This document shows positions 236 through 18,763 of a stretch of DNA of 21,424 bases, in pieces. Source of the DNA: a virus; the IMG/VR virus record IMGVR_UViG_3300001683_000218, positions 1-21,424 of that record; one strand, given 5' to 3'. A program made the translations under genes and the position numbers. The notes under the pieces were generated by a model. It was not told where the DNA came from. It did no database searches and saw only the letters and a list, made by a program, of their open reading frames with translations. Numbering within the stretch: the stretch's first letter is position 1; every line of letters starts with the position of its first letter.

Positions 236-445
236 TTACAAAGGAAGTCTTGAACATTTCTTTTTCATCATGTTCAAATTTTGTGCTTCTGCTTCAATCT
301 TATCTTTAATCGATCTATTCAACATTTTTGCAACCATCTCAATTTCACAATCAATATCATCTGTATAAAAAACAATTGCTTCCATGTATGTTATCTTCTT
401 TTCAATAACCAAATTTTCAATAGTTGAATTAACATCTATACTCAT
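236..445 (-). CDS. 33: gp33-like late-transcription co-activator (small)
   Basis: A 69-residue protein, acidic in its first half and basic near the end. The central pattern (YMEAIVFYTDDIDCEIEMVA, then a SIKDKIEAEAQNLN segment) resembles small marine T4-like proteins annotated as late-promoter accessory protein gp33. In T4 that protein bridges RNA polymerase and the sliding clamp to activate late transcription. The start ATG overlaps the stop of the ClpP-like gene as ATGA, so the two are probably translationally coupled. The gene sits directly upstream of gp32, as expected. The call rests on recalled family resemblance plus position; T4 gp33 itself is longer and divergent. Confidence 0.6.
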   Translation of the reverse strand: MSIDVNSTIENLVIEKKITYMEAIVFYTDDIDCEIEMVAKMLNRSIKDKIEAEAQNLNMMKKKCSRLPL

Positions 446-1005
446 TTATATACCTTTATCTTATCACAAACACCAAGTTTTAATGCTTCTTTTGCACCAA
501 GATAAACATCAGTTGCTGGTAATAGATATTTACGAATATCTTTCTCATTCAAACCTGTACATTTCTTATAATGATTAATCATTCTTATAGATGTTAAATC
601 ATGTTCTTTACCTACTGCAACCAATTCATGTTCTTTACCCCACGAACCCCAACTCCATTGATGTGACATAATAGAAGTATTAGGAGTTAAAAGTCTATGA
701 CCTTTCTCACCAGCAATAAATATCATAAACCCAGCAGATGCAATCTGTCCTATTCCAACTGTATGAATTGGAATAGGACAACCACGCATAATATCAATAA
801 CAGCAAAAGCTGCATTTAAATCACCGCCAGGCGAATTAATTATAATTTGCAAAGATTTTGCTCTAGGTCTTTGAAAACTTTTAACCAGAATAAAAGAAAT
901 AAGGTCTTTACAAGTCTCTGTGTTTACTTCGTCCATAAAAAGATAAACACCCTTTTCCTCTGGCGTTGCTACTAAACTGTCCCCCTTAGATTTCTTTTCA
1001 GACAT
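442..1005 (-). CDS. ClpP-like serine protease
   Basis: 187 residues, close to the length of processed bacterial ClpP. The ClpP fold is recognisable: the INSPGGDLNAAFAVID segment (residues ~57-71), the nucleophile segment GIGQIASAGF with Ser90, His115 in IMSHQ, and Asp166 in ATDVYLG. The Ser-to-His and His-to-Asp spacing agrees with the E. coli S97/H122/D171 triad, so the enzyme looks catalytically intact. Known ClpP forms tetradecamers that degrade substrates delivered by ClpX or ClpA. No unfoldase is visible here, so it may use the host one, replace host ClpP subunits, or process phage head proteins. A tmRNA whose tag ends in LAA lies about 1 kb away. The ribosome site AAGGGAA precedes the ATG at 1005. 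Confidence 0.88.
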   Translation of the reverse strand: MSEKKSKGDSLVATPEEKGVYLFMDEVNTETCKDLISFILVKSFQRPRAKSLQIIINSPGGDLNAAFAVIDIMRGCPIPIHTVGIGQIASAGFMIFIAGEKGHRLLTPNTSIMSHQWSWGSWGKEHELVAVGKEHDLTSIRMINHYKKCTGLNEKDIRKYLLPATDVYLGAKEALKLGVCDKIKVYK

Positions 1006-2085: not shown

Positions 2086-2118
2086 CTAAGCAGCAAGCGC
2101 ATACGAATAATCGTTAGC
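2086..2118 (-). other. tmRNA tag-peptide reading frame (ANDYSYALAA-stop)
   Basis: Ten codons from a GCT resume codon at 2118 to TAG at 2088-2086 encode ANDYSYALAA. This is close to the E. coli tag ANDENYALAA and keeps the LAA end recognised by ClpX/ClpP. The sequence before it (ATAAAC) fits an unpaired resume region. Confidence 0.92.
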
Positions 2119-2210
2119 GTTTATGGTTTGAATGATGATTAACGTGGCCAACATTCATCCACGTGCTGTCTTACACATTTCCCTCATCCTGTCGAAACCT
2201 AGTCACCCCC

Positions 2211-2285
2211 ATATTGTTAACTTGAGGAGTCGCTGAAACCTTCCGTTATCCAATTAGTTTCTAATTGTAGTCAGCATCTAAATAT
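2211..2285 (-). other. Intervening segment of the permuted tmRNA precursor
   Basis: 75 bases to be removed between the two tmRNA pieces. The ends ATATT and AATAT pair and would stack on the acceptor stem. Inside are a GCUGA/UCAGC helix (2273-2269 region with 2236-2232) and a perfect hairpin CAATTAG-AAA-CTAATTG (2267-2251). It likely presents the precursor to host processing nucleases. Confidence 0.75.
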
Positions 2286-2349
2286 TGGTGGAGGCGGGGG
2301 GAATCGAACCCCCGTCCAAAATGTTTCCATGTATAAGATTATACAGCAA

Positions 2350-3240
2350 TTAATGCCCAGCAACTTGTCTGGGCATTTTCTCTTGATTAACTTTAACATC
2401 TCTTACTGGCATTTGAAAGTTCAAATCCAATACTTGTCCATTCTTTACTTCAACCTGTTTCTCAATAATATGTGGATTATCATATACAGGACGTTTATCA
2501 GCTGCAAATTCCTTAATGTTATATCCTTCATGCCAAACAATCATATTATACTTACCATCAGGAACATCAGTCATTTCATAATTACCATCCTTATCAGTAA
2601 CAGAAAAGTATGGATGTTTTAATCCAAGCATCCAACCGTTCATATGAATATGAGTATCACATTGATACCTATTTATACCTTTCAGTCTCTTAACACGTTT
2701 AGTAGACATTCTATTCCTATCAGGTAAAGGTACATTAAATATTGTTGCACCATTAGAACCAAACGCATGAGGATTATGTAACAAGTTTTCCATATTGTAC
2801 ATACCAATTTTTCTAGTATTTACAAACGCAAAAACGTGTTGTTCAAAATTACACAACTGACTCTCTGGACGCTGTTTAATATCCTGTCCAGCATGAAGTG
2901 TACGTCCATTAGTAACTTTAATCTTTGCCTTTTTACTTGGTAATGCTTTTCCTACTGTAACTTTCTCAAGATAGACAGCAGTAAACTTAACACCTTTATT
3001 AGTAGGATTAATTACTAGTGCTGGGTTAACTACTTCTTGTCCACACTTATCCATATGTTTAAATACGGTAATAGGTGGCAGTTTCGGAATAGTACCCATC
3101 CATGTTACCTTACCCTTGATAGTAGAACCATTCATAACTTCGACTTCTTTATATTTAATCTTTCCTGCTTCAGCAAAATTAAATGCTACAAACATTAATC
3201 CAATAAGCAATATTGCTTGAAATAATAATTTACTCATCAT
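2350..3240 (-). CDS. Exported cupredoxin-like protein with carboxypeptidase-regulatory-like domain
   Basis: About 296 residues. GAGGAAGAAG precedes adjacent ATGs at 3240 and 3237; an in-frame ATG at 3258 is also possible. A signal peptide (LLFQAILLIGLMFVAFNFAEA) is followed by a GSTIKGKVTWMGTIPKLP strand, as seen in secreted proteins of the 'carboxypeptidase regulatory-like' family. Residues numbered from the 3258 start: His161 and His164 in LLHNPHAF, and C200-D-T-H203-I-H-M206 form a His...Cys-x2-His-x2-Met pattern like a type 1 copper site. A Tyr/Pro-rich segment (HPYFSVTDKDGNYEMTDVP, then GKYNMIVWHE) is the regulatory-like beta-sandwich. It overlaps the stop of the cytochrome gene, so co-expression is likely. 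Copper binding and an electron-carrier role are inferred. Confidence 0.75.
   Translation of the reverse strand: MMSKLLFQAILLIGLMFVAFNFAEAGKIKYKEVEVMNGSTIKGKVTWMGTIPKLPPITVFKHMDKCGQEVVNPALVINPTNKGVKFTAVYLEKVTVGKALPSKKAKIKVTNGRTLHAGQDIKQRPESQLCNFEQHVFAFVNTRKIGMYNMENLLHNPHAFGSNGATIFNVPLPDRNRMSTKRVKRLKGINRYQCDTHIHMNGWMLGLKHPYFSVTDKDGNYEMTDVPDGKYNMIVWHEGYNIKEFAADKRPVYDNPHIIEKQVEVKNGQVLDLNFQMPVRDVKVNQEKMPRQVAGH
2353..2376. repeat. 8-bp inverted repeat spanning the end of the cupredoxin-like gene
   Basis: ATGCCCAG and CTGGGCAT are separated by 8 bases and cover the last codons and stop region. On the minus strand no T-run follows (TTAATTGC), so it is not a typical terminator. It sits ~15 bases before the tmRNA acceptor piece and could mark a processing point or block ribosomes or exonucleases. 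A TATAAT (2343-2338) follows but overlaps the tmRNA P2 strand, so its role as a promoter is doubtful. Confidence 0.5.
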
Positions 3241-6082
3241 CTTCTTCCTCATCTTCATTATTAATAATAACTACTGGTTGTGTAGCATACTTCATTTGTA
3301 CTTCTTTAGAATAAGATACAACAGAATCATAATTTTCTTCTTTCCATCCAGTTGCACGTTTTACCTCACCTTTTGTGCCTCCACGTTTTTCATTATCAAT
3401 TAATCGTTGAATAATATTTACAGGTTTACCAGTTTTAGAAACATCCCTTTGTAAATTCATAATCAAAGCGATATCTTCTTTAGTTGCTGGTTTCTTCTTA
3501 CCCATATCATAAGACCGTGATATAAAAAAGTAAGGGTCTTTTGGCGGATAGTCTGGAAACGCATAACCCTTTTGAACATCCTTAAATACTTTCTTAAATC
3601 CATCACTCTGAATATAATCAACTATTTTATAGAGTTCATCTTTAGTTAATACACCACCGTGTTCATCCCTATTACCGATACCCCATTCAGGCATCAATCT
3701 AGTGAATCTACCATTGTTAGGAACTTCAAACATATCATCCCTAGTTCTAACAAGAGAATCTGCCTCATAAGATATACCAGTAATACCCTCACCAGTATAA
3801 CCATGACAATGAGCACAATTCATTTCAAAGATTTGTCTACCCGATAAATCAGAACCACGTTGAATAATTTTAGAAGGTGGCAGTTGTGTAGTTGTACCAT
3901 CCCACTTTAAAAGTTCATCACGTTCTTCCCAACCTTCATCCTCAACCATAGTTTCATAGTCAATCTTAATTGGTAGTTTCATTTCTTCAATAGAAGATGT
4001 TTGATATGCATATTGAATATCGCCACCATACATCTCTGCCCAATGTTTCTGACCTTTCAAGTTATTAAAGATACGATTCGTCTTAGGTTTACCAATGTTA
4101 ACTGCAACTTCAAGTGCTAATGTTGGTGCAATACCAAATTCACCATCACCTTTACCTAACCACGGCACACCATCATTATCCCAATCCGCTGAACCAACTC
4201 CTATTCCAAGTTCACCACTACGATTTTCTTCGGACTGAATCATTCCTGACATCATTAAGGTTTGAACTGCCCAACGTGAAAACTTAGTGATTAATGGTTT
4301 CGTCATATGTATAGGTGTTACAAACATCATTTCTCTATATGCTCTCAATTGTGCAGCAACATCTAAAGAATGAATGATAACTGTATCTTGACCTAGAGTA
4401 CTTCGGAATAATCCTGATGGTTCATCCCAATATACATCCCAAACATAATTCCAAGTTTTTCTTGCACCTTCCACATACTTAATTTCATGTGTAACTTTGT
4501 ATGCTTCAAGTAATGCAAAGATACCTGTAAAGTTTGGTCTTGACTTGTTACATGGTTCAATTGGTCTATTTGTAGTAACATAATAAGACTTACAAAATTG
4601 ACCTCTATCACCTTGCACCTTCAATAAAAAATCTGCATTAGTTGTAACTAAGTTTGTTGCAATTTTAGTCAACTCTGGTTCAAGATCATCCTTATCAGTA
4701 CCAAGTAATGCTTGAGGATCACGCATACGATCAACATACTCTTTCAATGCAATAAGAGTCAAACCCATATCAGTTATGTTAATTACTGTATACTTTCTCT
4801 TATCCCATGTTGAAACTAGAAGATCATTTCTAGTATGCATAGCAACAATATTCTTGATAATCATATTGGCCAAATAATGCGGTACTGCACCAAGATTCTT
4901 TTCAAGAATTCCACCATCAACTGGCGGATTGTCTGTAAACATTTCAGTCATTCGATATGTTGATTGAAAGAAATGTGCGTTACCCCAAAGTAATGCAGCT
5001 TGGTCAAACAATAAACTTCTAGTATCATCAACATCAAAACCCCATTGACGTTCTGGTAAATCACCAGCAAGAAGTAAATTAGGTTCAATCCTATGTGGAA
5101 AATACTTTAGTCCATTTTTAGGATCATACGTCTTTGGATTGACACCGCCAAGTTTACCATTTTCATCTACAACTAATTGTGACTTCAATGAAAGTACTTG
5201 ATTAACTCTAGTTGTTGCAAGTGCCATGCCACGGAAACCTTCTTCAGCATCATTACCAGCAAGTGTTATACGCCCAGATTGTGTAGATGGTGACTCACCA
5301 GTATGAGTTGCTTTCCACATATAATCAACCCACATAGATGCACGTTTCAACATGATACCAATACTACCCATGTCAAGAAACTTTGACATACCATCTCTAT
5401 CCCAACGCCATTGGCGATTTTGTAGGAAATAACTAGGCACTCCCCACTTACCATTTTTTCCAGATTGAGGATCATTGAAAGTGTCCTCTACTGGTGTAGG
5501 TGCTACAAAATGAGGATCACCAGATTCAAATTCTAAGTATGATGGAGAACCATCATCAGGAAATCTTGGGATACCTACACGTTTCCAAACTAATGGCAAA
5601 AAATGTTGTAACAATACATCTTTGTTTGATAAACGCCGTTCACCTCTATCTCTGTGAAGTCGATTAAACTTTGATAACTCAATCGCCTTTAAAGTAAAGT
5701 AAGGGCCATTAACAAAGTTAATACCAGCATGACTAGCTGCAAACCCAAAACCCAAATTGTTTCTTGCGTTCCAATACATCTGTTGGTTAGTCATCCAAAT
5801 AAACGCAGAGTTATGTGCCAACGGAAAAGCAGCTCTTACCATATTATTCAAACCAGTTTGGGACATTTCAAATTCTTCGTTAGCAGCCCATTGTTGATAC
5901 TTTGGTTTGAATGTCCTATCCAGAATTTTAACCTCTGGAAGTTTACTTCTATACAAACTCAAATCAGGTTGAAATGTTCCTTCTTTAAGATGTAACTTTC
6001 TACCATCTGCTGTACTCATAATATACTCAGCACTTACTAATGATGGTATCAATAATAAAAATGTTAAAATCAATTGAATCAT
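3230..6082 (-). CDS. Large periplasmic protein with C-terminal cytochrome c domain
   Basis: 950 residues with a clear signal peptide (LILTFLLLIPSLVSA). Residues ~20-700 are rich in helix and Trp/Tyr and look like a helical-barrel enzyme scaffold, but I recognise no named family. Residues ~745-830 form a c-type cytochrome: SGRQIFEMNCAHCHGYTGEG with the CxxCH heme site at ~756-760, and RLMPEWG ~37 residues later supplying a probable Met ligand, then TKDELYKIVDYIQS. A basic linker and an acidic tail (EDEEEDDE) close the protein. Heme attachment would need host Ccm in the periplasm. It lies between an outer-membrane barrel and a cupredoxin-like gene, suggesting substrate oxidation coupled to electron transfer. 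The substrate is unknown. Confidence 0.72.
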   Translation of the reverse strand: MIQLILTFLLLIPSLVSAEYIMSTADGRKLHLKEGTFQPDLSLYRSKLPEVKILDRTFKPKYQQWAANEEFEMSQTGLNNMVRAAFPLAHNSAFIWMTNQQMYWNARNNLGFGFAASHAGINFVNGPYFTLKAIELSKFNRLHRDRGERRLSNKDVLLQHFLPLVWKRVGIPRFPDDGSPSYLEFESGDPHFVAPTPVEDTFNDPQSGKNGKWGVPSYFLQNRQWRWDRDGMSKFLDMGSIGIMLKRASMWVDYMWKATHTGESPSTQSGRITLAGNDAEEGFRGMALATTRVNQVLSLKSQLVVDENGKLGGVNPKTYDPKNGLKYFPHRIEPNLLLAGDLPERQWGFDVDDTRSLLFDQAALLWGNAHFFQSTYRMTEMFTDNPPVDGGILEKNLGAVPHYLANMIIKNIVAMHTRNDLLVSTWDKRKYTVINITDMGLTLIALKEYVDRMRDPQALLGTDKDDLEPELTKIATNLVTTNADFLLKVQGDRGQFCKSYYVTTNRPIEPCNKSRPNFTGIFALLEAYKVTHEIKYVEGARKTWNYVWDVYWDEPSGLFRSTLGQDTVIIHSLDVAAQLRAYREMMFVTPIHMTKPLITKFSRWAVQTLMMSGMIQSEENRSGELGIGVGSADWDNDGVPWLGKGDGEFGIAPTLALEVAVNIGKPKTNRIFNNLKGQKHWAEMYGGDIQYAYQTSSIEEMKLPIKIDYETMVEDEGWEERDELLKWDGTTTQLPPSKIIQRGSDLSGRQIFEMNCAHCHGYTGEGITGISYEADSLVRTRDDMFEVPNNGRFTRLMPEWGIGNRDEHGGVLTKDELYKIVDYIQSDGFKKVFKDVQKGYAFPDYPPKDPYFFISRSYDMGKKKPATKEDIALIMNLQRDVSKTGKPVNIIQRLIDNEKRGGTKGEVKRATGWKEENYDSVVSYSKEVQMKYATQPVVIINNEDEEEDDE

Positions 6083-6096
6083 TATCTAATCTCCAG

Positions 6097-7293
6097 TTAA
6101 AAGGATACAGCAGCACCAAGATTCACAACATAACTAGGACTTGGGCCTAACTTTGGTGCATGAACTCTTTGTAAATATGTTGCAGTAAAACGAACTAAAG
6201 GATCAGGACTATAAATCAAACTAGGCCCAATTAAATTCAACCAACCCCCACGAAAATCGGGTCTTGGAGCTGCAGCACTCTGATTGGGAAATTTAAAATC
6301 CCCATCATAATGATCGTTCTCTTGCCATTTATTAATACTTGACAATTGCAAAGATACATAATCTTTATGTATCGGAACAACCGTTGATGCAAAGATAGTT
6401 GCAGTATCGCCTGGATCAACCCCTTCATGTTTCTGATTAAAACGATATGCAACTCCCCAATGAACAGCAAGTCTATCAAACTTAGTACCTTCTAGGAAAC
6501 TCGGCATATCGCCTGGCAGAAATTGTCTAGTCCAGAATGATGCAACTTTAAAAGACATTTTACCAAAACCTAATTGTCGCCCTGCTGGTAATTCACCAGT
6601 ATCAGTAAATCTTTTAAATGTAGGTTTCGATACTGTACCAGTAGCATCATCTTTAACAGAGATAACACCGTTATCGCCCGCTTTCATAGAACTGTCACCA
6701 GTAGGTAAATAAACACCAGCAGCAACCGCCCATCCAATAGGTTTATTCCCTTGATCCCAAATCTTCTTTTTAATCATAATGTTAATGTCCTGTAAACCTT
6801 CAGACGTTCCAGTATTATAAACGCTCTTCGCATTATTACCGACATCAGGCAGTCTAACAGGCCCACGATTAACAGAACTTTCATATGTAAGATTTAAAAC
6901 AGCAGTAAAACTGTGGAAGTATTTTCTATTAAGATCAAATCCATATTTTAGGGATGATGTAAGAAAACGGCGTTGGACTTGGTTTTCTCTATGAATACCA
7001 TTAATGTCTGCTTTGCCGTCTTTATACCAATCATCCTCATCAACATTAACAAATTTAAAATTTGTAGAAAAATTGAATAGCCCAGGCGGTAGAACATATG
7101 CGTGTCCACCAATCGCTGGAACTAGTAAGGGGGGAATAAAATTCTTAACTTGATCTTTAATAAGACCACGTTCTAATATTGTAAAATCTTCGTTTACACC
7201 AAGATTTAACATACGATCTTCAAAATTTTCAGTCGCAAACGCAACTGATATGCTCCACATCCAAAAGGATGCGATCAACGCAAAATGTTTCAT
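6097..7293 (-). CDS. Outer-membrane beta-barrel, MetA/phenol-pathway transporter-like
   Basis: 398 residues from the ATG at 7293 (GAGAGG ribosome site; an upstream in-frame TTG at 7308 precedes it). A signal peptide (HFALIASFWMWSISVAFA) is followed by alternating amphipathic strands. The segment DINIMIKKKIWDQ then WAVAAGVYLPTGDSS is typical of the 'transporter / MetA-pathway of phenol degradation' barrels. The final residue is Phe (NLGAAVSF), the outer-membrane insertion signal. It is the first gene of the three-gene exported block and may admit the substrate of, or dock, the cytochrome-containing protein 14 bases downstream. The same fold could instead alter phage adsorption or host permeability. 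Confidence 0.72.
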   Translation of the reverse strand: MKHFALIASFWMWSISVAFATENFEDRMLNLGVNEDFTILERGLIKDQVKNFIPPLLVPAIGGHAYVLPPGLFNFSTNFKFVNVDEDDWYKDGKADINGIHRENQVQRRFLTSSLKYGFDLNRKYFHSFTAVLNLTYESSVNRGPVRLPDVGNNAKSVYNTGTSEGLQDINIMIKKKIWDQGNKPIGWAVAAGVYLPTGDSSMKAGDNGVISVKDDATGTVSKPTFKRFTDTGELPAGRQLGFGKMSFKVASFWTRQFLPGDMPSFLEGTKFDRLAVHWGVAYRFNQKHEGVDPGDTATIFASTVVPIHKDYVSLQLSSINKWQENDHYDGDFKFPNQSAAAPRPDFRGGWLNLIGPSLIYSPDPLVRFTATYLQRVHAPKLGPSPSYVVNLGAAVSF

Positions 7294-7311: not shown

Positions 7312-7707
7312 TTATAATACTGGTGCTCTCATTTCTTCTATTTTTTCATAAAATGAATTAATAGTTCCATTATTTTCTATATAAACATCAACATCCTCAC
7401 CCGACAAACCATTTTCACTAGCATGACTTCTATCTCTTATTAATTCTTGGTCACGATTAATATAAACAACAATACCGCCACGATTTCTAATCCAAAGTGC
7501 TTCATTAGAAAAACGAACATCTGTAATCACAAAAGAAAAACCTGGCTGTCTATTAATATACATCTCAGCATTTTTTACCCATATATTAACATCCATACTT
7601 CTGGCAACATCAGTTCCTAATTGTTGATAAAGTTGTCGAGGTGATTTACCCCATGGCTCAACAACTTTCTCTTTATTGTCAATTTGTTCATCAGTAAGAT
7701 TGAACAT
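7312..7707 (-). CDS. 1: Deoxynucleoside monophosphate kinase, C-terminal part (split)
   Basis: 131 residues matching the latter part of T4 gp1-type dNMP kinases: MFNLTDEQI, PWGKSPRQLYQQLGTDVARS, VITDVRFSNEALWIRNRGG, VVYINR and HASENGL. These enzymes phosphorylate dNMPs for phage DNA synthesis. The P-loop is missing here and lies in the overlapping upstream frame (7691-7864). The ATG at 7707 has AAAGG only three bases upstream, so independent initiation is possible but not ideal. Together the two pieces would total about 188 residues, a plausible full enzyme. Either two chains assemble, a +1 frameshift joins them, or the gene is broken. Confidence 0.75.
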   Translation of the reverse strand: MFNLTDEQIDNKEKVVEPWGKSPRQLYQQLGTDVARSMDVNIWVKNAEMYINRQPGFSFVITDVRFSNEALWIRNRGGIVVYINRDQELIRDRSHASENGLSGEDVDVYIENNGTINSFYEKIEEMRAPVL

Positions 7708-7864
7708 CGCCTTTGTTTAAAGGTTTTGCAAAAGAGTAATGTACAAACTGATAAGTATCTACTAAATATTTGCCAGCAGTATCTTTACCACTTCTCGCCT
7801 TACCAGCAAATCCGATAACCAACGGTTGACCATCGTTATTTGTCCAACCAAGAATAGGGAACAT
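7691..7864 (-). CDS. Deoxynucleoside monophosphate kinase, N-terminal P-loop part (split)
   Basis: 57 residues from the ATG at 7864 to a TGA at 7693-7691. It contains GFAGKARSGKDTAGKYL, the nucleotide-binding P-loop of dNMP kinases, and a typical continuation HYSFAKPLN. Immediately after that the frame diverges. The conserved continuation (MFNLTDEQ) is in the +1 frame and overlaps by 17 bases. Its start overlaps the stop of the 59-residue gene as TAATG, with AAGGAG upstream. Confidence 0.72.
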   Translation of the reverse strand: MFPILGWTNNDGQPLVIGFAGKARSGKDTAGKYLVDTYQFVHYSFAKPLNKGDVQSY

Positions 7865-8043
7865 TATTTAGATTCTCCTTTTCGATGATCTGGGCCACGT
7901 TTGATTTCATGTTTCCATTTGTGATTTGGGTATTTTCCATCTTTATCGGCAACAGGAATATACCCTTCTAATTTATTCCGATATGACTTTGCTTCAGATT
8001 TCTTTTCAAAGAATTCCTTTCCAACCTTAAAAAGTTTCTTCAT
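7864..8043 (-). CDS. Small basic phage protein, unknown function
   Basis: 59 residues, strongly basic, with an N-terminal KKLFKVGKEFFEKKSEAK segment and a C-terminal HKWKHEIKRGPDHRKGESK tail. The start ATG at 8043 has GTGGAG upstream and the stop overlaps the dNMP-kinase start. The composition suggests a nucleic-acid contact, but no family is recognised. Confidence 0.65.
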   Translation of the reverse strand: MKKLFKVGKEFFEKKSEAKSYRNKLEGYIPVADKDGKYPNHKWKHEIKRGPDHRKGESK

Positions 8044-8057
8044 TTTTTAACTCCACT

Positions 8058-8174
8058 TTAATGTGTTGCTACTAACCAAACAATACCAAATGGGGCAAAC
8101 ATAACTGCTAGGAAATAAGTCAATACAAAAACGACTGTTAAAAGTCCTAATGTTGCTTTAAATATATGTTCCAT
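8058..8174 (-). CDS. 38-residue single-membrane-segment peptide
   Basis: A tiny protein from the ATG at 8174 with GGAG eight bases upstream. It is almost entirely hydrophobic (residues ~8-36), with one long or two short membrane helices. It is the first gene after promoter copy 2 and could be an early membrane-acting phage peptide. No family recognised. Confidence 0.6.
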   Translation of the reverse strand: MEHIFKATLGLLTVVFVLTYFLAVMFAPFGIVWLVATH

Positions 8175-8202
8175 AATTTGCTCCAATCTAATTGTTAGTA
8201 TA

Positions 8203-8235
8203 AGAATACCAAAAATATAGTCATAATACAAGGAA
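8203..8235 (-). promoter_or_regulatory. Candidate early-type promoter, copy 2 of 4
   Basis: On the minus strand: TTCC (8235-8232), TTGTAT (8231-8226), 17-bp spacer ending TTTGG, TATTCT (8208-8203), giving an extended -10 TGGTATTCT. Transcription would start near 8196, leaving a ~20-base leader with GGAG before the 38-residue peptide gene. Confidence 0.7.
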
Positions 8236-8291
8236 AAGGTTACTCTTTATAAATCAATGACTTGTAAGTATATGATTCTAAAGGGTTTTTT

Positions 8292-8353
8292 GACCGTCTG
8301 AGTCGCTGTTTATGAGTTATTCTCTGCCGGCCATACTAGGGTATTCGCCAGTC
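8292..8353 (-). other. GC-rich possibly structured segment after the SbmA-like gene
   Basis: This 62-base stretch is clearly richer in G+C than its surroundings. On the minus strand its ends GACUG/CGGUC can pair. An alternative hairpin is CUGGC..AUAC-CCUA-GUAU..GCCGG, and a GAG-AAUAA-CUC mini-hairpin is present. There is no coding frame, T-run or tRNA signature. It could be a 3' stabilising structure, a small RNA or a termination region; I cannot assign it. Apart from this and promoter copy 2, I see nothing in 8175-8355. Confidence 0.35.
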
Positions 8354-8355
8354 AA

Positions 8356-9369
8356 TTAAACCCTCTTAAATCGCTCTAAATTGCGTTCAAACTCTTTGAG
8401 TCTTTTCCATATAGACCGAAATTCAGTTATCATAACCCAGCGGAATAGGAAAAAAGCGAGGCCTTCATGTACCTTACCAAACGCATTACTGACTTGAACC
8501 ACTATACCCAACGTAATTAACTTAGTAAATAGACCAGAACCAACTAATAGGTATGGAACTACTACCATGAATTGATTATATAAATTTATCCATCCTTCGG
8601 TATAACCATAATGCCAAAATAATCTTTGATAATTAAATCTAATACCAGTAAACAACTCAAGTATAGTATCAGGTTGTGCATAATTCTTTTTATCATCCTC
8701 TGCAAAAACTAATTCTTTTCTAAATGCAGCTTCAACTTTTTGGTTATTGTATTCAAGGCCTGGAAGTTTTGAACCAACAATCCATGTAATAATTAATCCA
8801 CCAATGGATATTCCAAATGCAATCCAAACTAAACTACCTTCAAAATATCCAAAATAAGGAATAATTACTTTCTCACTTAATCCATATAACAAAGGAATAA
8901 ATGCTATCAATGTCATTATAGTACGAATAAGATTAACACCAAGATTCTCAAGAATCAATACAAATCTTTTTATATCTTCCTGTATCCTTTGAGATGCACC
9001 TTCAATTTCTTCCTCAACATTTGTCCATTGAGGCATATAATGAAATGTTAAAGCTTCTCTCCATCTCAAACCATACCATCTTGTAAAGAAATCAGTAAAG
9101 GTTTGAAGAAACATAAATGGCATCGCAAGCATAAAAAATGATTTATCTGATGTCTCAAATGATATTAATTTTGTATAAAATAAATCTATACCCACTTGCG
9201 GATTATTAACATAATCAGCAGACTTTTGCATGAGATCATAGAATCCACCATACCATTCATTTATCATAACAGTAAGTGATACTTGTGCCCACATTAATAT
9301 CATTATAAACGAAAGTCCACCCCATGCCCATACTCTCCATTTTTTACTACAGAAAAAAGATTTAATCAT
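8356..9369 (-). CDS. SbmA/BacA-like inner-membrane peptide transporter
   Basis: 337 residues with several membrane helices. It is closely patterned on E. coli SbmA and rhizobial BacA: YGGFYDLMQ, FFTRWYGLRWREALT, IEGASQRIQEDIKRFVLILENLGV, TLIAFIPLL, GSKLPGLEYNNQKVEAAFRKELV, FAEDD, and a terminal RSIWKRLKEFERNLE. SbmA/BacA are proton-driven homodimers that import peptides (microcins, proline-rich and NCR peptides) and vitamin-like molecules; no ATPase domain is expected. It is ~70 residues shorter than E. coli SbmA, missing N-terminal membrane helices. The start ATG overlaps the preceding gene's stop (ATGA). The role in infection is unknown: nutrient import, or altering peptide sensitivity. Confidence 0.88.
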   Translation of the reverse strand: MIKSFFCSKKWRVWAWGGLSFIMILMWAQVSLTVMINEWYGGFYDLMQKSADYVNNPQVGIDLFYTKLISFETSDKSFFMLAMPFMFLQTFTDFFTRWYGLRWREALTFHYMPQWTNVEEEIEGASQRIQEDIKRFVLILENLGVNLIRTIMTLIAFIPLLYGLSEKVIIPYFGYFEGSLVWIAFGISIGGLIITWIVGSKLPGLEYNNQKVEAAFRKELVFAEDDKKNYAQPDTILELFTGIRFNYQRLFWHYGYTEGWINLYNQFMVVVPYLLVGSGLFTKLITLGIVVQVSNAFGKVHEGLAFFLFRWVMITEFRSIWKRLKEFERNLERFKRV

Positions 9370-12560: not shown

Positions 12561-12887
12561 TTAATTCATTGAAAAACTTTCACCACATCCACACGTTGAT
12601 GTAGCGTTTGGATTAATAAACTGAAACCCCTTCCCTTGTAAACCATCTTCAAAATCTAACGCCATACCTTTTAAGTATATTATACTCTTTGCATCCATAA
12701 AAACTTTATAACCTTCATAATCAAAAATTGTATCACCAGACGCCTCGGACGTAAATTGTAGATCATAAGAAAGTCCAGAACATCCACCACCCTTGACTGC
12801 TAGACGTAAACCAATATCACTAGGGAACTCACTAATTAAGTACTTCACCTGTTTACTTGCTTTTGGTGTAATGGTTACAAAATCCAT
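12561..12887 (-). CDS. A-type iron-sulfur carrier (IscA/ErpA/HesB-like)
   Basis: 108 residues, typical for the HesB/IscA family. The three ligand cysteines are present: GGGCSGLSYDLQF (~Cys36) and CGCGESF near the C-terminus. Other hallmarks are GLRLAVKGGG, the central FMDAKSIIYLKGMALDFED and GFQFINPNA. These proteins hand Fe-S clusters to target enzymes. Similar genes are known in marine T4-like phages. A strong AAGGAG precedes the start. It could support host or phage Fe-S enzymes during infection. Confidence 0.93.
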   Translation of the reverse strand: MDFVTITPKASKQVKYLISEFPSDIGLRLAVKGGGCSGLSYDLQFTSEASGDTIFDYEGYKVFMDAKSIIYLKGMALDFEDGLQGKGFQFINPNATSTCGCGESFSMN

Positions 12888-17310: not shown

Positions 17311-18387
17311 TTATTTTGATTTGGGTTGGAGAGTCATTTCTATAGGAACAAGCATACTATTCCTAAGTATTTCTAATTGAATTACGTCACCAATATTTTT
17401 CATCTTAATAACTGATGCAAACATTCTCCATTTTACATCTTTACCATTAAGTTTTAAAATAATATCATCTTTTTCTAAGATATATGCACCTTTACCATAT
17501 TGAAAGTTTTCCATGTCCTTACTTTCTACTGGACGGTATACAATACCCAAAAATGGTCTTATAATTTGTTCACCACTATACAATTTTTTAATTACTGTTT
17601 GAGCGTATGTCCCATCAACTGCAAATCCTAGTCCAATACTACCCCTACCACTATCAGTAATAATCATACTGTTAATTCCAATAACATCCCCATGAGAATC
17701 AAATAATGGGCCACCAGAGTTGCCTGGATTAACAGCTGCATCAGTTTGTATGAAAGGAACAAATGAAGGTGTTTTTGGTATAAACCTATCTAATGATGAT
17801 ACAATACCAGTTGTAACACTAAAAGATTGATTCATTGGTGAACCAATTGCAATTACATCATCACCTAATTCTGGTTTATCTCCCCATGTTAAAAAAGGAA
17901 ATACTTTATTATGCTTATTAATAATTCCTAATAACGCTATATCAGAATCTTCATCATAATTTATTAATTCAGCTTCATGTACTTCTTCATTGTGAAAAAT
18001 AAGTGTTATTTTTTTACAATTAGTAATACAATTATTTACTACATGAGCATTAGTTATAACATACCCATCACTACTAACAACAAATCCAGAACCTACATGA
18101 GTTGGTTCATCTTTTGGATTTTTGCCTTTTTGCAAAGGCGGACGTTGTTGTTGATTTTGGTTTGGGCGTTCTCTAAACCTAAAACCACCCTTATTATTTT
18201 CTCTGTCACCACCTGTAAGATTATCTAAATTAGTTGTGTCTTTTTCTGAAATAACTTCAACTACTGATTGTAGAACTTTTTCAACTACACTTGTTTTATA
18301 TGTATGATCTGCATATCCAATATCAGCTGTACCCAAAGTTAGTAAGATAATTGATAAACATAATATTTTTATCTTATTTGATAACAT
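17311..18387 (-). CDS. HtrA/DegP-like periplasmic serine protease
   Basis: 358 residues from the ATG at 18387, which has AAGGAGCTTAAA upstream; the frame is open further up but without a ribosome site. A signal peptide (ILCLSIILLTLG, then ADIGYA) leads into a Gln/Pro/Arg-rich linker and the trypsin-like domain: His115 (ITNAHVV), Asp149 (DSDIALL) and Ser224 (NPGNSGGPL). A single PDZ domain (~280-355) follows with RPFLGIVYRPV. All catalytic residues are present. HtrA proteases degrade misfolded envelope proteins. In a phage it could manage envelope stress caused by its exported proteins, or process host surface proteins. Confidence 0.92.
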   Translation of the reverse strand: MLSNKIKILCLSIILLTLGTADIGYADHTYKTSVVEKVLQSVVEVISEKDTTNLDNLTGGDRENNKGGFRFRERPNQNQQQRPPLQKGKNPKDEPTHVGSGFVVSSDGYVITNAHVVNNCITNCKKITLIFHNEEVHEAELINYDEDSDIALLGIINKHNKVFPFLTWGDKPELGDDVIAIGSPMNQSFSVTTGIVSSLDRFIPKTPSFVPFIQTDAAVNPGNSGGPLFDSHGDVIGINSMIITDSGRGSIGLGFAVDGTYAQTVIKKLYSGEQIIRPFLGIVYRPVESKDMENFQYGKGAYILEKDDIILKLNGKDVKWRMFASVIKMKNIGDVIQLEILRNSMLVPIEMTLQPKSK

Positions 18388-18433
18388 TTTAAGCTCCTTT
18401 AAATCTCGATTTATTATACCGAGGCTTATTTTA

Positions 18434-18763
18434 TTAGTTTTTTGGGATAAACAATTCGATATGATTGCCTCCAATGATACAAGAGAGATTTCCTTTTGTA
18501 TAGTTAAAAATAATAGCCCATTGTTTATTATTAGGATTCATAAGTATTTTCATAGATAGTAACATCCTATGTTTGTCATCATTGATGACACCACTTGCAG
18601 CTAACCCCAACATATAATCGTTTTCCGCCATGTCCATAATAAATTCTGGTGTATTACAATACAATAAAATTTCACTTAATGGTACTGTTTGTGGAGTTTC
18701 TGTAATTGGTTTATTACCTAAAATAAATAATAAACACAAGCCAATAAATATTAATTGCTTCAT
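18434..18763 (-). CDS. Small exported protein, unknown
   Basis: 109 residues with an N-terminal signal-like segment (LIFIGLCLLFILG). The C-terminal half (WAIIFNYTKGNLSCIIGGNH) looks like a short beta-hairpin region with one Cys; another Cys is in LLYCNTPEF. It sits directly before the HtrA gene with GAGG upstream. No named family recognised. Confidence 0.65.
   Translation of the reverse strand: MKQLIFIGLCLLFILGNKPITETPQTVPLSEILLYCNTPEFIMDMAENDYMLGLAASGVINDDKHRMLLSMKILMNPNNKQWAIIFNYTKGNLSCIIGGNHIELFIPKN

Follow-up and report, generated by a model that had tools for sequence, protein, structure and literature searches.

Genes for photosynthetic electron transport, that of plastocyanin among them, are carried by cyanophages (PMC5082946, PMC10452541), and two T4-like phages from Lake Baikal with predicted Nitrospirota hosts, VP_99 and VP_1723, carry genes for ferredoxin and Fe-S cluster assembly (PMC7678222); neither "cytochrome" nor "cupredoxin" appears in the main text of the latter paper. 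On the cellular side, two cupredoxin-like proteins are encoded in the NXR cluster that Nitrospina, Nitrospira and Kuenenia have in common; the Nitrospina gracilis genome led to the proposal that copper carriers connect NXR with the oxidase or the bc complex, and an unusual cbb3 motif of that organism is shared by Sinorhizobium alone (PMC3578206).

The locus considered here lies in a 21.4-kb marine virus record with T4-like genes; the whole stretch of 21,424 nucleotides was analysed and is called the window. It holds a block of three exported proteins that, on balance, we consider to be a host-derived auxiliary metabolic module of nitrite-oxidizer origin, probably feeding electrons into the periplasmic respiratory chain of the host of a T4-like phage. 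The features of the block are as follows.

6097-7293, minus strand: barrel-type outer-membrane protein, candidate channel (398 aa from ATG, signal peptide, C-terminal Phe)
3230-6082, minus strand: exported 950-aa protein with N-terminal helices, an (alpha/alpha)6-toroid-like domain and a C-terminal monoheme cytochrome c
4013-5395, minus strand: toroid-like helical domain, residues about 230-690 (profile match and low-confidence model)
4163-4186, minus strand: DWDNDGVP motif, residues 633-640, calcium-loop-like (DxDxDG-like at 633-637)
3605-3844, minus strand: cytochrome c domain, residues 747-826 (CxxCH 756-760, Met797; PF13442 and PF00034 above cut-off)
2350-3258, minus strand: exported 302-aa cupredoxin-like protein with a C-terminal carboxypeptidase-regulatory-like beta domain
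2776-2778, minus strand: His161, likely fourth copper ligand of the 302-aa protein
2641-2661, minus strand: copper-ligand loop Cys200-x2-His203-x2-Met206, aligned with the amicyanin CTAHPFM loop

The three genes follow one another in the order barrel, 950-aa protein, 302-aa protein, with a gap of 14 bp between the first two and an overlap of 29 bp between the last two, and each product begins with a Sec-type signal that can be read straight from the sequence (...SVAFA/T in the barrel, ...SLVSA/E in the 950-aa protein and ...FAEA/G in the 302-aa protein). Searches of the three proteins against PHROG and NCBIfam assigned no function except to the cytochrome domain. The identical order recurs in four further viral contigs, at least three of which are near-alike and represent one lineage. 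Between phages, dN/dS is 0.09-0.22 for all three genes, indicating that they are maintained by purifying selection, and this constraint together with the conserved order places the block beyond chance. The sequence-only reading had proposed three adjacent or overlapping genes with signal peptides, a CxxCH heme domain fused to a helical region of about 700 residues, a His/Cys/His/Met copper-like site and a terminal-Phe barrel; the first three of these proposals are borne out by the gene layout just described and by the domain evidence that follows, and the barrel is so in part.

The only CxxCH of the 950-aa protein, at residues 756-760, lies within a class I c-type cytochrome domain recognized by two Pfam models (PF13442, 28.1 bits with a cut-off of 27; PF00034, 25.8 bits with a cut-off of 21.3). 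The heme-binding residues and Met797-Pro798 are invariant in five sequences of the family, and Met797 is likely the second axial heme ligand. An AlphaFold2 model of the full protein, built with five sequences, was discarded as poor (pLDDT 37). The helical region falls outside every Pfam, NCBIfam and PHROG family. Plasmid records of Anoxybacillus and Aeromonas contain distant, heme-free homologues of about 670-690 aa, which share 24-25% identity with it (E down to 2e-20). A profile that includes these homologues matches cellobiose 2-epimerase along about 70 residues (E 7e-6). The domain was also modelled; the model is of low confidence (pLDDT 44, pTM 0.51) and serves solely to support this match, aligning with cellobiose 2-epimerases at a VIA-align Z of 15. 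Profile and model together suggest an (alpha/alpha)6 toroid of the 2-epimerase type as the most likely fold of the domain. In the epimerase stretch RHWWPQAE, the aligned active-site His, which we take to be catalytic in the epimerase, corresponds to Lys in the toroid family, so we do not file the family as an epimerase. Within the DWDNDGVP motif, D635, D637, V639 and P640 are invariant in the alignment out to Anoxybacillus and Aeromonas, and the motif by itself suggests a calcium loop. In the Anoxybacillus plasmid (L040, 7515-11613), the heme-free toroid homologue is followed by a beta-propeller and MauG/diheme-cytochrome gene, so that here, too, a redox gene adjoins the toroid; both of these genes are uncharacterized. 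No redox neighbour was seen at the Aeromonas loci. The toroid-cytochrome c fusion is an undescribed protein family and carries no family name.

The 302-aa protein contains the type 1 copper ligand set, namely His, Cys, His and Met with a short Cys-His-Met loop, and none of the four residues (His161, Cys200, His203 and Met206) varies among 11 homologues reaching as far as Sinorhizobium. The family profile gives weak matches across the ligand stretch to amicyanin 1sf3 (E 0.005) and to the type 1 copper protein 5fc9 (E 0.017), and its alignment with amicyanin sets the ligands in register. The NCBIfam amicyanin model TIGR02657 is absent from the matches of the window protein up to E 1, and in the Sinorhizobium meliloti homologue it reaches 13.1 bits, far under its cut-off of 110.2. 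The C-terminal beta domain resembles PF13620 and PF13715, both below cut-off. We predict that the protein is a blue-copper-type, cupredoxin-like electron carrier.

For the 398-aa protein, which ends in ...GAAVSF, the Pfam model PF13557 (Phenol_MetA_deg) gives a weak 19.9 bits in the window against a cut-off of 22, and 28.9 bits, above that cut-off, in the 84%-identical homologue of the sister contig L004; identity across L003 and L004 is 84-95%. A simple strand-alternation test showed no excess over shuffles, and the barrel profile run against the PDB returned matches at chance level alone. Because strand alternation does not rise above shuffles, the evidence for a barrel consists of the Pfam scores, the C-terminal Phe and the signal peptide, by which the protein is probably an outer-membrane channel.

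The contig is that of a T4-like phage. Its T4-like genes comprise a partial deoxynucleotide monophosphate kinase (phrog_139), an exonuclease (phrog_298) and T4 RNase H, and the sister contigs carry gp32, a baseplate hub protein and a T4-type DNA polymerase. Around the block we located the following genes.

442-1005, minus strand: ClpP-like protease
2086-2348, minus strand: permuted tmRNA (Rfam tmRNA_permuted, 120 bits)
7312-8360, minus strand: deoxynucleotide monophosphate kinase, in two reading frames in the window, intact in L003 and L004
8356-9369, minus strand: SbmA/BacA-like peptide-transporter gene (PF05992, E 5e-107), retained in L003 and L004
10780-12270, minus strand: aldehyde dehydrogenase gene
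12561-12887, minus strand: Fe-S cluster assembly gene
17311-18474, minus strand: exported trypsin-like serine protease with a PDZ domain
2172-2498 of sister contig L004: 4Fe-4S ferredoxin gene

The split of the kinase in the window is either an assembly error or a broken gene. The permuted tmRNA lies immediately downstream of the copper-protein gene and is followed by tRNA-Gly, and it is also present in the sister phages L002, L003 and L004. The SbmA/BacA-like transporter is uncommon phage cargo. The aldehyde dehydrogenase, Fe-S assembly and ferredoxin genes are further host-type metabolic genes and resemble those of the Baikal Nitrospirota phages. Scans for the T4 late-promoter motif, and for sigma-70 promoters and terminators, gave nothing above chance.

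A pattern-based search through 84,980 species genomes turned up close cellular relatives of the 950-aa protein in two Nitrospinota MAGs only (64-72% identity). A search of GenBank phages found none, and deeper viral scans with alignments returned the same four contigs and nothing further. In both MAGs the 302-aa gene is next downstream of the cytochrome gene, and one MAG has two such cytochrome-copper gene pairs with a TPR gene after each. The contigs that carry the pair are short (3.0-3.5 kb), and misbinning was considered; it is unlikely, since the GC of each contig (0.49 and 0.36) fits that of the rest of its own MAG (0.49-0.52 and 0.35-0.37, respectively), the two MAGs being 13 GC points apart. 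The barrel gene was not found in the Nitrospinota genomes, where the cellular contigs stop short of its expected place, and across the viral contigs and Nitrospinota genomes searched it is known so far from phages alone. Looking for the same gene order in cells thus recovered the cytochrome-copper pair in two MAGs and not the barrel. Phylogenetic trees place the phage copies together in one group that lies next to the cellular copies (support 86/89 for the copper protein and 98/98 for the cytochrome end), a pattern consistent with a single capture from Nitrospinota by phages; the direction, from cell to phage, is taken from the wider family being cellular, as the root of the trees is not fixed.

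The copper-protein family is much more widespread than the block, with at least one member in 70 of the 77 Nitrospinota genomes. In the loci that were read, Nitrospinota paralogs adjoin mono- or triheme cytochromes, NxrC-like cytochrome c and EB_dh proteins, and multicopper oxidases, and several EB_dh proteins are present in each of the two block-bearing MAGs. The S. meliloti homologue adjoins a SCO family protein, with cbb3 oxidase subunits about 5 kb away. In two Nitrospinota genomes a paralog is paired with a protein of about 1640 aa that contains a multicopper-oxidase domain.

L056, 1369-7291 and 9240-15161: paralog with the ~1640-aa multicopper-oxidase protein, as a tandem repeat
L057, 11811-17735: paralog with the ~1640-aa multicopper-oxidase protein

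Pathway neighbours of the cellular homologues, which had been put forward as a check on the sequence-only reading, include multicopper oxidases and respiratory cytochromes at the loci read. The block, however, does not lie at an NXR locus and occurs in only two of the 77 Nitrospinota genomes, which argues for an accessory function and not for a part in core nitrite respiration.

As close relatives of the block are found only there, Nitrospinota is the best guess for the host, and the phage most likely infects a nitrite oxidizer of this phylum. A DNA search of the 77 Nitrospinota genomes gave no spacer or prophage link, although short spacer matches could escape such a search; the matches that it did return were confined to shared metabolic genes, tRNA and tmRNA. 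The phage tmRNA scores 120 bits against the permuted model and those of the Nitrospinota genomes at most 45 bits, under the cut-off, and this wide difference, with no spacer or prophage link, keeps the host assignment short of proof.

How the block might work can be outlined from its parts. The barrel would form a channel in the outer membrane, and the 950-aa protein would reside in the periplasm, where its toroid would bind either a substrate or another protein as partner and its heme c would accept electrons. From this heme, or from the nitrite oxidoreductase chain of the host, the blue-copper protein could then pass electrons on to a cytochrome or a terminal oxidase of the host. If expressed in infected cells, the block would sustain the flow of electrons and the energy supply, or redirect them, during the shut-down of host genes. 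Given that the closest relatives of two of the block genes are in nitrite-oxidizing Nitrospina-type bacteria, the virus probably keeps or redirects host respiration while infecting. Host-type genes within a phage genome, under purifying selection, are the marks of auxiliary metabolic genes that we observe here. The heme c domain, the type-1-copper-like site, the export signals and the respiratory neighbours of the cellular relatives agree with the earlier claim of a periplasmic electron-transfer or substrate-oxidation module, which as a whole is partly supported.

The main rival is a dedicated substrate-oxidation enzyme: an organic or glycan-like compound enters through the barrel and is oxidized in the periplasm by the toroid, here a genuine catalyst acting on a new substrate, and the electrons go to heme c and the copper protein, with nitrite respiration linked only downstream. 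The predicted toroid fold is one seen in sugar epimerases and glycosidases, the Anoxybacillus homologue precedes a beta-propeller and MauG/diheme-cytochrome gene, the copper loop has the spacing of amicyanin, an acceptor for a periplasmic dehydrogenase, and the name of PF13557 refers to phenol degradation. However, no catalytic residues can be assigned, with Lys standing at the epimerase His, no redox cofactor site is visible besides the single heme, and the Aeromonas homologues lack a redox neighbour, so that we hold this explanation to be rather unlikely.

Metal handling, which the sequence-only reading offered as an alternative, receives no direct support: a system for uptake, storage or detoxification of copper or heme would account for the metal ligands of the 302-aa protein and for the neighbour of the S. 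meliloti homologue, an SCO family protein of a kind that often serves as a copper chaperone, but ligands of the His-Cys-His-Met type belong to a type 1 site for electron transfer and not to a chaperone, the cytochrome fusion would have no role, and most paralogs adjoin respiratory cytochromes, making this very improbable. We assign an equally low likelihood to a porin-cytochrome conduit, through which electrons would cross the outer membrane in either direction between the cell and external acceptors or minerals. Known conduits of this type use multiheme chains; the barrel gene does adjoin genes for an exported cytochrome and a copper carrier, but the 950-aa protein has a single CxxCH where a multiheme partner would be expected, and its toroid is much too big for a heme wire. 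Lowest of all we rate an envelope-remodelling or superinfection-exclusion set, with the toroid acting on surface glycans and the barrel replacing a phage receptor: the glycosidase-like fold and a barrel found to date only in phages would suit it, yet the heme, the copper site and the cellular cytochrome-copper gene pair would be left unexplained.

An auxiliary module that feeds the host respiratory chain hence remains our preferred reading. A bolder proposal, doubtful at present, is that some Nitrospinota and their phages possess an undescribed periplasmic oxidation system in which a channel-fed heme-c-toroid enzyme delivers electrons to a dedicated blue-copper carrier; if true, nitrite oxidizers would have a second source of electrons, one that phages have captured whole. 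Nitrospina-type nitrite oxidizers are major marine nitrate producers and important dark carbon fixers, and to our knowledge little is known about their viruses. A phage-borne exported redox module would show viruses acting on the energy conservation of nitrite oxidizers, as cyanophages do on photosynthesis. The analysis also brings to light the toroid-cytochrome c fusion family, which is open to direct testing.

The block had been called never typical of phages, which is too strong in view of cyanophage plastocyanin and the ferredoxin and Fe-S genes of Nitrospirota phages (PMC7678222). It had also been ranked as a candidate undescribed system; as two of the three are genes of Nitrospinota cells, it is better regarded as a host-derived auxiliary metabolic module than as an orphan system. 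Phage electron-transport genes are thus a known kind, and what we did not find in any paper of the open-access literature is an exported three-gene heme-copper-barrel module of nitrite-oxidizer origin.

Compared part by part with described systems, the toroid domain probably shares the (alpha/alpha)6-toroid fold of the N-acylglucosamine/cellobiose 2-epimerase superfamily, the similarity extending over about 70 residues, but it differs from these enzymes in lacking the aligned active-site His, in being exported and in its fusion to cytochrome c. The 302-aa protein has the Cys-x2-His-x2-Met loop and aligned upstream His of amicyanin, whereas the block has no methylamine dehydrogenase genes and the protein has an extra beta domain. 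As with the cupredoxin-like proteins of the NXR cluster (PMC3578206), to which they are likened by arrangement, family members in L054 and L057 adjoin cytochromes c and NxrC-type subunits; the phage copper protein, in contrast, has a toroid-cytochrome fusion and not an NXR subunit as its partner and is about 24-33% identical to these paralogs. Like VP_99 and VP_1723, the phages described here are T4-like and carry host-derived redox genes, including the Fe-S assembly gene of the window and the 4Fe-4S ferredoxin of L004, but the Baikal genes serve cytoplasmic carbon fixation by the reductive TCA cycle, and those of the window would serve periplasmic and outer-membrane redox reactions in a marine, Nitrospinota-linked setting (PMC7678222). 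The nearest functional parallel may be cyanophage plastocyanin, likewise a phage-encoded copper electron carrier presumed to sustain host electron flow in infection (PMC5082946, PMC10452541), from which the window protein differs in its extra C-terminal beta domain, its toroid-cytochrome and barrel partners and its chemolithotroph origin.
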